A stretch of 64,000 nt of DNA. It comes from a virus. This document shows, piece by piece, positions 61,960 through 63,333 of the stretch (positions are counted from its first letter, which is position 1; each line of letters opens with the position of its first letter). Where the stretch lies: the IMG/VR virus record IMGVR_UViG_3300008448_000063, positions 1 through 64,000 of that record; one strand, written 5' to 3'. Below the pieces are notes generated by a model, which was not told where the DNA came from, did not search any database, and was given only the letters and a program-made list of their open reading frames with translations. The translations under genes were made by a program, and so were the position numbers.

Positions 61960-62393
61960 TTCACTATATCACAGGACTGCACATCTGTCAAGTGTCATAT
62001 ACACTGATTCTCACACATATCACACTGTCTTATACACAGTTTTCCACAGGTTTCTTATACTTTTTCCACAAGTTTTCCACAGTTTTCTTATAGTTTTCCA
62101 CAGGCAAATTCACTGGGTTTTGGTATAAACATAGATGGGCACTGTGTTTTCACTGTTTTATACTTAAGACCTGTGGAAAACTATTCACTGTGCCACTAAT
62201 TGTACTGGGAGGGGGTGCTTGACAGGGGGGAGAGTTTGTGATACAATGGGGGCCAAGATCACAACAAGATGCACCATTTATTCACACATTCTCTAGACTG
62301 ATTATACACAGTGATTAATAGGTAGATTACACAGTTGATTCACACTTTTTCCACAGAATTAACACAACCTGTGGAAAACTCAACTACATTTAT
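61960..62393. other. Candidate replication origin: DnaA-box cluster in non-coding region
   Basis: This 434-nt stretch has no supported gene. It contains TTTTCCACA at 62040-62048, 62062-62070, 62073-62081, 62094-62102 and 62347-62355, and the same box in reverse at 62172-62180 and 62370-62378. TTATNCACA boxes lie at 62030-62038, 62278-62286 and 62302-62310. TTTTCCACA is the known cyanobacterial DnaA box form and TTATNCACA the E. coli form. A plus-strand sigma70-type promoter (62219-62247) and four G-tracts (62207-62252) lie between the left and right groups. The layout resembles a replicon origin; use by the phage is inference. Confidence 0.65.
62219..62247 (+). promoter_or_regulatory. Plus-strand sigma70-type promoter inside the DnaA-box cluster
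   Basis: A perfect TTGACA (62219-62224), a 17-nt spacer and TACAAT (62242-62247; one mismatch) on the plus strand. It faces away from the reading direction of every gene here and is followed by no plus-strand gene. It could make an antisense or origin-priming RNA. Confidence 0.5.
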
Positions 62394-62654
62394 TTACACA
62401 TTTATTTGATTTTCAACATATTCCACGGAATACCCATTTGACCACTGATTGACATCAAACTTATCTTCTACCATGTATAGCAACTCACTCACATAAGACC
62501 ATTCTAACCATGCTGTACTTTTCTGTTCTTCAGTTACACATTGATCAATCAGTTGTTTACAATGATCTTTATAAAGTTCAATGGAATTGATGATCCTTTG
62601 TGCATCCTCTTGACATAACTCAATCTGGAAAACTTTGTTAGTCTTGATTATCAT
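62394..62654 (-). CDS. Hypothetical protein, 86 aa
   Basis: The sequence is helical: FQIELCQEDAQRIINSIELY near residues 9-28, a Cys at 13, 33 and 39, and a C-terminal part WSYVSELLYMVEDKF. It starts by an ATGA overlap with the stop of the 41-aa gene, so the two are translated together. I do not recognise a function. It is the last gene before the origin-like region. Confidence 0.65.
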   Translation of the reverse strand: MIIKTNKVFQIELCQEDAQRIINSIELYKDHCKQLIDQCVTEEQKSTAWLEWSYVSELLYMVEDKFDVNQWSNGYSVEYVENQINV

Positions 62655-62776
62655 TTGTTTTTGATCTTGTTAATAGCAGTGGTGATAGATGTAGTCAGGA
62701 GAATACAAACATCATTCTGGAAGATAGCATACACAGGTTGTTTGGATTGAATGTCGAAAGTGTACTTAATGGTCAT
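62651..62776 (-). CDS. Small protein downstream of tandem leader, 41 aa
   Basis: A 41-residue product: MTIKYTFDIQSKQPVYAIFQ, then NDVCILLTTSITTAINKIKNK. It looks like two or three strands and a C-terminal helix. It has no ribosome-binding site; the upstream sequence is ACAAACAAAATG. It is preceded by two perfect 61-nt repeats, which end 18 nt before its ATG and occupy almost the whole leader, and it is coupled to the 86-aa gene. Function unknown; its control by the leader is a hypothesis. Confidence 0.6.
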   Translation of the reverse strand: MTIKYTFDIQSKQPVYAIFQNDVCILLTTSITTAINKIKNK

Positions 62777-62794: not shown

Positions 62795-62921
62795 TTGATG
62801 GATTAAGTGTGATTATGCCTCATCAGGACATAGCAGGGACTTAACCTCTATCTTATTGATGGATTAAGTGTGATTATGCCTCATCAGGACATAGCAGGGA
62901 CTTAACCTCTATCTTATTGAT
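62795..62921 (-). repeat. Two perfect 61-nt tandem repeats, structured leader RNA candidate
   Basis: Copies at 62795-62855 and 62856-62916 are identical, followed by 5 nt of a third. They fill the 154-nt gap between two genes. On the minus strand each copy folds as GGTTAAGT paired with ACTTAATCC (one bulge) around an inner hairpin ATGTCCT-GATG-AGGCAT (one bulge). The two internal loops (CCCTGC and AATCAC) are unpaired and could bind something. Tandem structured leaders are typical of some riboswitches. Confidence 0.75.
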
Positions 62922-62930
62922 AAATGGGAA

Positions 62931-63263
62931 TCAGTTTTCTTCTTTGTGCATATCAATCATCATTTCATTGATCTCATCATGATTGATCAATTTGCTGTCC
63001 CAGGAAACATCATCAGCAGTGGTGAGTTTATCAATGTTTACCATGTTCCTGATGAACTTTTGGTAAGGAGTTTCATTGTCAGAAACATACTCTACACATG
63101 CAACAGCAGTGTTATACAGAAAAGGTTGATTCTGGATCCACAGGGATACATTCCAGGTTTCATAATTTGCCCAACCATTATAGGTTTGATTGATGGTTTG
63201 TGTGGTTTGATTGATGGTTTGCATGGTTTGAAGTTGTTTCTCAACCTTTGATACATGTATCAT
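62931..63263 (-). CDS. DUF7249-like protein, 110 aa
   Basis: The core YNGWANYETWNVSLWIQN near residues 28-45 matches a small phage and archaeal-virus family I associate with DUF7249, of unknown function. Before it, residues 14-27 are a QTINQTTQTINQT run encoded by a 21-nt tandem repeat. The frame stays open to an ATG at 63326, but I prefer ATG at 63263 because the extra part holds an 8-bp hairpin (63295-63316), which suits a leader. The C-terminus is acidic, ending MIDMHKEEN. Coordinates of the start are uncertain. Confidence 0.65.
   Translation of the reverse strand: MIHVSKVEKQLQTMQTINQTTQTINQTYNGWANYETWNVSLWIQNQPFLYNTAVACVEYVSDNETPYQKFIRNMVNIDKLTTADDVSWDSKLINHDEINEMMIDMHKEEN
63249..63262. 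promoter_or_regulatory. 14-bp perfect palindrome
   Basis: TGATACATGTATCA is a perfect 14-bp palindrome that sits over the first codons of the DUF7249-like gene start at 63263. It could be an operator, or simply codons 1-5 by chance. Confidence 0.35.
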
Positions 63264-63294
63264 ACCACAGATTGAGGGGTTTCGGTAAATGTTA

Positions 63295-63316
63295 GTGCCA
63301 CTTTGATTAGTGGCAC
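63295..63316 (-). promoter_or_regulatory. Perfect 8-bp hairpin in leader
   Basis: GTGCCACT, a 6-nt loop, AGTGGCAC: a perfect inverted repeat between the stop of the 70-aa gene (63334) and the start of the DUF7249-like gene. No T-tract follows, so it is more likely a regulatory stem or processing site than a terminator. Confidence 0.5.
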
Positions 63317-63333
63317 ATGATGTCATTTAGTGA

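Follow-up and report, generated by a model that had tools for sequence, protein, structure and literature searches.

A tandemly duplicated RNA in a T4-like cyanophage belongs to a widespread structured RNA family of cyanobacterial viruses that probably imitates the antitoxin of host Abi_2 toxins

The window analyzed here comprises 64,000 nucleotides, corresponding to positions 1 to 64,000 of the IMG/VR virus record IMGVR_UViG_3300008448_000063. This record, a 69,181-base fragment of a T4-like cyanophage, contains major head, portal, sheath, terminase, polymerase, and SbcC-like genes. At positions 62795-62921, two identical units of 61 nt plus 5 nt (TRF: 2.1 copies, 100% matches) occupy the whole gap between two small open reading frames (ORFs), and their score of 254 is the top repeat score within the window. 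Both ORFs lie on the minus strand, which is also the sense strand of the repeats. The upstream one (62931..63326, 131 aa) matches phrog_871, of unknown function (E 2.8e-26), and its stop codon stands 17 nt upstream of the GATAGAG sequence of the first copy, whereas the downstream one (62651..62776, 41 aa) has no PHROG match. The first-pass annotation had described two perfect units plus 5 nt filling the gap between small genes, the last one ending 18 nt before the ATG of the 41-aa ORF, and both statements were confirmed by TRF and the ORF map. Outside the window, tRNA-Thr and tRNA-Arg genes of the same strand precede the repeats at distances of about 3 and 6 kb.

Each 61-nt unit contains a 56-nt core extending from GATAGAG to CCATC on the minus strand. 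Copy 1, transcribed first, spans 62858..62913, and copy 2, identical to it, spans 62797..62852. In copy 1, GGUUAAGU (62900..62907) pairs with ACUUAAUC (62862..62869) to form an 8-bp outer stem called P1. The fold of the 139-nt repeat region beats 200/200 shuffled sequences (z -3.1); that of a single 61-nt unit is only marginally better than shuffles (z -1.9). The locus is laid out as ATCAA-TAAGATAGAG...CC-ATCAA-TAAGATAGAG...CC-ATCAA, with the 5-mer ATCAA on the minus strand at the first junction (62917..62921, the third partial copy of TRF), at the middle one (62856..62860), and at the last one (62795..62799). As this microhomology both separates and bounds the two copies, the pattern is the one expected for a recent tandem duplication. 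The doubling is local: apart from the window record, a tandem was seen only in L001, a near-identical sister contig with the same two copies. That the repeat could be absent from relatives, as the first-pass annotation had envisaged, is thus true of the duplication and not of the unit. No clear late-promoter box precedes the RNA of the window, which may be produced by read-through transcription from the 131-aa ORF. In another part of the window, seven exact TTTTCCACA sites are found on both strands within 340 bp (62040-62378), for a total of 8 across the whole window against 1.6 expected. This motif is presumably DnaA-box-like for cyanobacteria, and the region is, from its sequence, a candidate phage replication origin or DnaA-binding region.

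The repeated unit is a member of a previously undescribed, very widespread structured RNA family of cyanobacterial viruses, hereafter called R1 RNA. Its consensus is 5'-GAUAGAG-[P1]-CNCUG-[any hairpin, P2]-YAC-[P1']-CCAUC-3'. Since a first loose pattern returned many unrelated matches, acceptance then needed P1 pairing and a 3' CATC flank. In the second scan of viral contigs, P1, P2, and the loop were left free because the invariance of P2 in the first large set stems from the search pattern. Together, both scans yielded at least 204 accepted copies and at least 104 distinct cores, nearly all of them viral. With an R1 covariance model, each window copy scores 71.6 bits (E 1.3e-19 over the whole record, 5.7e-20 with filters off). 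By blastn, the unit is matched in five isolated cyanomyoviruses, S-CREM1, S-SZBM1, S-SRM01, S-RIM8, and S-RIM32, in all of which (5/5) the R1 RNA is unannotated and close to tRNA genes. Weak blastn matches in Erwinia, Vibrio, Salmonella, and Klebsiella phages were attributed to chance, as they lie mostly inside coding genes and cover at most half of the query.

Compensatory changes, the check suggested with the first-pass annotation, are abundant among relatives. In an alignment of 61 sequences, 96.8% of cells are paired and both sides change in 13/19 pairs, with a covariation score of 0.462 versus 0.191 for shuffled and at most 0.104 for slid alignments. P1 varies freely in sequence while its pairing is kept, with two-sided changes in 7/8 pairs, so that the 8-bp outer stem was rightly predicted. 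The G-U/G-C and U-G/U-A changes are consistent with an RNA of the tRNA-sense strand. The inner hairpin P2 is variable in length and can be swapped for a wholly different hairpin. It had initially been drawn as AUG-u-CCU/GAUG/AGG-CAU, but this register is wrong because the 5-nt loops of some relatives leave no room for the CCU/AGG helix; relatives support AUGUC-[CUGAUGA]-GGCAU in the window and UAUAUC-[5-7 nt]-GRUAUA in the family. The two internal loops already noticed are retained as conserved asymmetric loops, AGA/C and CNC/C, whereas a short outer GAU/AUC pairing had been overlooked. The near-invariant loop bases are GA of AGA, C, C, U, and G of CNCUG, and A of YAC.

No match to R1 RNA was obtained in Rfam at gathering or relaxed thresholds, and the family was found neither there nor in the literature searched, from which it is regarded as new. 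Together with the strong covariation, the lack of an Rfam match bears out the early view of a new structured RNA that is no known riboswitch, including the absence of glycine and glutamine riboswitch cores. Two other resemblances centered on the apical loop were discarded. The window loop CUGAUGA recalls the anticodon loop of an armless tRNA-Ile(GAU), but relatives have 5-nt or replaced loops. The same letters recall a hammerhead ribozyme, but the GAAA core is absent and the loop is not conserved, its variants being CUGAUGA, CUUAUGA, CUUGA, or a replaced hairpin.

The genomic surroundings of R1 RNA differ completely from one locus to another, including tRNAs of 13 isotypes, a head gene, and small ORFs. 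Among the matches listed, a tRNA starts 0-5 nt downstream in 78/172 deduplicated copies, and in 136/137 cases R1 RNA shares its strand with the next tRNA. In S-RIM32, R1 RNA abuts the 3' end of tRNA-Thr; in podovirus-like contigs, it lies upstream of the major head gene; in the window, it precedes a small ORF. The covariance model detects one copy in 18/20 phage records; the remaining two records, of which one is the window record, have two copies each. Likewise, the other loci are single, apart from two contigs with copies 159 nt apart. A single portable copy in changing, unrelated surroundings argues for an RNA acting in trans. The closeness to tRNAs would also fit a role in cis, and so would a promoter box. 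Indeed, among the matches listed, a TATAAATA-like box (at least 6/8) starts exactly at -13 from the first G in 55/153 distinct sequences upstream of R1 RNA; positions farther upstream have 0-1 such boxes, and shuffling gives 2.1 on average. In T4, late promoters carry TATAAATA at about -13 to -6, which would make GAUAGAG the 5' end of R1 RNA wherever this box is present.

Several further elements were observed around R1 RNA. An odd tRNA-like gene lies beside it in L122 (2343-2416), L120 (about 2420-2495), and L123 (2552-2624); the odd gene of S-RIM8 is given no definite type by ARAGORN and has a two-letter anticodon, and similar sequences are found in S-SZBM1 and S-RIM32. In L019, L035, and L068, the sequence after R1 RNA is tRNA-like and has a T arm but apparently no room for an anticodon arm; in L035, a major head protein gene comes next. 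The flanks in L184, L201, L207, L127, L139, and L246 contain recurring tRNA-array spacers, CTGGAAAGATAAACCAGAATGCCGTRG before R1 RNA and GTAGGAAGTGCAACMCCTCTCGCTGGT or GTGGGGAAGTGTAACGGTTGCACAGAAGTCTC after it, which may be further RNA mimics. In phage contigs with no tRNAs nearby (L245, L281-L283, L285, L288, L290, L297), a hairpin TTCCCGCTCTGC..GCATCGGGCT stands immediately upstream of R1 RNA.

Besides phages, R1 RNA occurs in a few cyanobacteria. A relaxed pattern gave 34 matches in GTDB contigs, 31 of which were discarded for want of the full 8-bp P1. The three full-stem copies belong to two Cyanobium genomes and one uncultured cyanobacterium (L302, L311, L319) and, with a model from which they were left out, score 67.7-70.3 bits. 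In these 3/3 Cyanobium-type genomes, at one orthologous locus, an Abi_2 gene or what is left of it comes directly after R1 RNA. This gene is intact in L319 (3826-4866; Pfam Abi_2, E 6.8e-48), frameshifted in L311, and truncated in L302, and TTGACA stands 30 nt before GATAGAG in all three copies. In contrast to these genomes, no Abi_2 gene was found in the window. Proteins of the Abi_2/AbiF family are regarded as the probable ancestors of Cas13. The Cyanobium protein displays the HEPN motif RNRCAH and matches PDB 8vz6 (E 3.2e-26), the structure of PbAbiF as a dimer in complex with two copies of its ncRNA (PMC12373285).

Abi_2 genes were found in 13/300 genomes of this host family. In the upstream regions sampled, a structured RNA occupies the equivalent position, being either R1 (type A), an abiF-like RNA (type B), or a related RNA (type C). 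The Rfam abiF model scores below cutoff but adjoins Abi_2 in most of the host-family genomes with Abi_2, whereas it has no match at all in the host genomes carrying R1 RNA. A third leader type, ACCYGCCACGCCTC...TGCGCACCCCGGCGGGT, was noticed at the Cyanobiaceae Abi_2 genes L335, L336, L345, and L347, below the RF03085 cutoff. Proteins of types B and C fall into separate groups, both sharing only 23-27% identity with the type A protein. Such protein groups tracking the RNA types are what cognate toxin-antitoxin pairs would show, and the host R1 homologue presumably acts as the antitoxin of its Abi_2 neighbor. R1 RNA was found in 2/201 genomes of the host family and 1/386 of a sample of the phylum and in no other genome of either set; thus, known cognate toxins look rare relative to the many phage copies. 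The main weakness of the link between R1 and Abi_2 is that a single orthologous locus, shared by three related host genomes, underlies it.

In the viral sequences examined, R1 RNA is an orphan. No Abi_2 gene was detected in 389 viral loci or in 12/12 whole phage records with R1 RNA. The same phages also carry orphan abiF RNAs. Indeed, RF03085 scores above its cutoff (37 bits) in 11/20 phage records with R1 RNA versus 0/10 other phages (eight cyanomyoviruses, P-SSP2, and T4), a difference to which habitat could contribute. In S-SZBM1, an Rfam abiF RNA (55.7 bits) starts 7 nt after R1 RNA, within the tRNA array. One abiF core was retrieved by pattern scan in at least 120 viral contigs; among the matches listed, a tRNA lies at most 15 nt downstream in 77/123 of its loci, and R1 RNA is also present in 49/123. 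Both families remain distinct, as neither the window copies nor the Cyanobium copy match RF03085 even at a relaxed threshold, and no abiF RNA match was found in the window record. The available text of the S-CREM1 report mentions abiF, manA, and wcaG RNAs, with abiF in a tRNA array and its role unproven (PMC9964418). This phage is also a carrier of R1 RNA, unannotated there, and that text draws no link to Abi_2 toxins. In S-CREM1 (L360:716-930, 246-343), the manA RNA was seen to lie 1 nt from tRNA-Leu and to overlap tRNA-Asn by one base, with the wcaG RNA in the same tRNA array; both RNAs are usually called cis-regulatory.

Characterized systems provide points of comparison. RCd22, the antitoxin of the Clostridioides difficile AbiF, contains two abiF motifs and neutralizes the toxin, which it binds directly, both in cis and in trans; disrupting its stems abolishes neutralization, whereas structure-preserving changes retain activity (PMC12373285). 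Like R1, the abiF RNA (RF03085/RCd22) is a small stem with a conserved internal loop and a leader of Abi_2/AbiF genes, and its orphan versions sit in the same phage arrays. It differs by its invariant sequences and loop layout, R1 being mainly found in phages devoid of the toxin gene. Phage PhiTE escapes ToxIN by expanding intergenic pseudo-ToxI repeats (PMC3475682). Pseudo-ToxI is an intergenic phage RNA imitating a host RNA antitoxin, as R1 would be, and both show tandem repeats of changing number, those of R1 being restricted to the window record and L001. R1 has a homologue, presumably an antitoxin, at host Abi_2, and Abi_2 itself was not detected in the 12 phage records or the 389 viral loci. 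ToxN/ToxI is an unrelated toxin with a pseudoknot RNA, and the function of pseudo-ToxI is experimentally proven while that of R1 is proposed; the natural R1 family is also far larger. From the available text of their report, RNA anti-CRISPRs (Racrs) are likewise solitary phage mimics of a defense system's own RNA, but they imitate CRISPR repeats (PMC10651486), whereas R1 would imitate an AbiF-type antitoxin.

On this basis, R1 RNA is probably an orphan RNA antitoxin with which phages imitate the antidote of the host Abi_2 toxin and neutralize that toxin in trans. In the host, an RNA of the R1 family is the leader of the gene for Abi_2, an AbiF-like HEPN ribonuclease, and would presumably bind the toxin dimer and keep it inactive. 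The phage would make the same RNA with no toxin gene, usually from one copy within an array of tRNA and small-RNA genes, and this RNA would bind and silence the host Abi_2, so that the abortive response fails to the benefit of the phage. Contacts with the protein are probably made by the two invariant internal loops, AGA/C and CNC/C, while the stems would be structural and the apical hairpin replaceable. The duplication in the window may serve a higher dose or offer two sites per molecule, as in the two-motif RCd22. The first-pass annotation, whose overall interpretation is partly supported, had also considered a phage protein binding site used twice; protein binding is close in spirit to the present reading, but the protein involved is likely one of the host.

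The main rival, though an unlikely one, takes R1 for the 5'-terminal leader of late phage transcripts, a hairpin that would open tRNA and small-gene operons and have a stabilizing or antiterminating effect comparable to that of HK022 put. It would account for the box at -13 in 55/153 upstream sequences among the matches listed, for the host copy beginning 30 nt after TTGACA, and for R1 RNA preceding tRNAs and ORFs alike. However, these phages have many late operons and usually a single copy per genome, the box is absent in about two thirds of the sequences, the S-RIM32 copy abuts a tRNA 3' end, and neither the conservation of R1 before Abi_2 nor the co-carriage of abiF RNA is explained. It is decidedly unlikely that R1 is a processing element of tRNA arrays or a stable small RNA with some other role, for which the stable RNAs C and D of T4 offer a comparison. 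With a tRNA 0-5 nt downstream in 78/172 deduplicated copies among the matches listed, RNase P cleavage would release an RNA of about 55 nt; yet arrays of many tRNAs hold one copy, R1 RNA is also found with no tRNA nearby (in the window and in podovirus-like contigs), and the host copies are not at tRNAs.

The roles could also be reversed, the host Abi_2 locus having captured the phage RNA as a trigger or sensor, so that the RNA activates Abi_2 rather than blocks it. R1 RNA is far commoner in phages than in hosts, as such a capture would have it, but this scheme appears highly improbable: selection should remove a trigger, yet R1 RNA is highly conserved in phages, which also carry abiF RNAs of an antitoxin family, and the AbiF leader that has been characterized works in trans as an antitoxin. 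Finally, a structured, tandem element in an intergenic gap had initially suggested a metabolite riboswitch, with a tandem sensor or leader controlling the 41-aa gene. Nearly all relatives are single-copy, usually one per genome, their neighbors are unrelated and the downstream gene inconsistent, and no Rfam riboswitch matches, so that this context already contradicts the idea, which is barely credible.

More broadly, the tRNA arrays of cyanophages may well, on slightly favorable odds, be counter-defense arsenals in which several different orphan RNA antitoxins (R1, Rfam abiF, and perhaps more spacers) pre-empt diverse host Abi_2/AbiF toxins, and tandem duplications like that of the window could increase their copy number. 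Phage tRNAs have been proposed to counter tRNA-cutting defenses (PMC10264068), and a shared array would thus be a coherent counter-defense unit. RNA mimicry of an antitoxin by phages is a known principle, and its use against AbiF-type toxins on such a scale appears to be new. To our knowledge, the mimicry of a toxin antidote by RNA is known mainly from one phage with few repeats. S-CREM1 with Synechococcus CB0101, as well as Cyanobium, are existing systems for direct tests. If true, the proposal would assign a function to the abiF RNA known from S-CREM1 and suggest a reason for the clustering of small RNAs with phage tRNAs, and it would reveal a natural and abundant RNA-based counter-defense against AbiF-type HEPN toxins in the viruses of major aquatic photosynthesizers.
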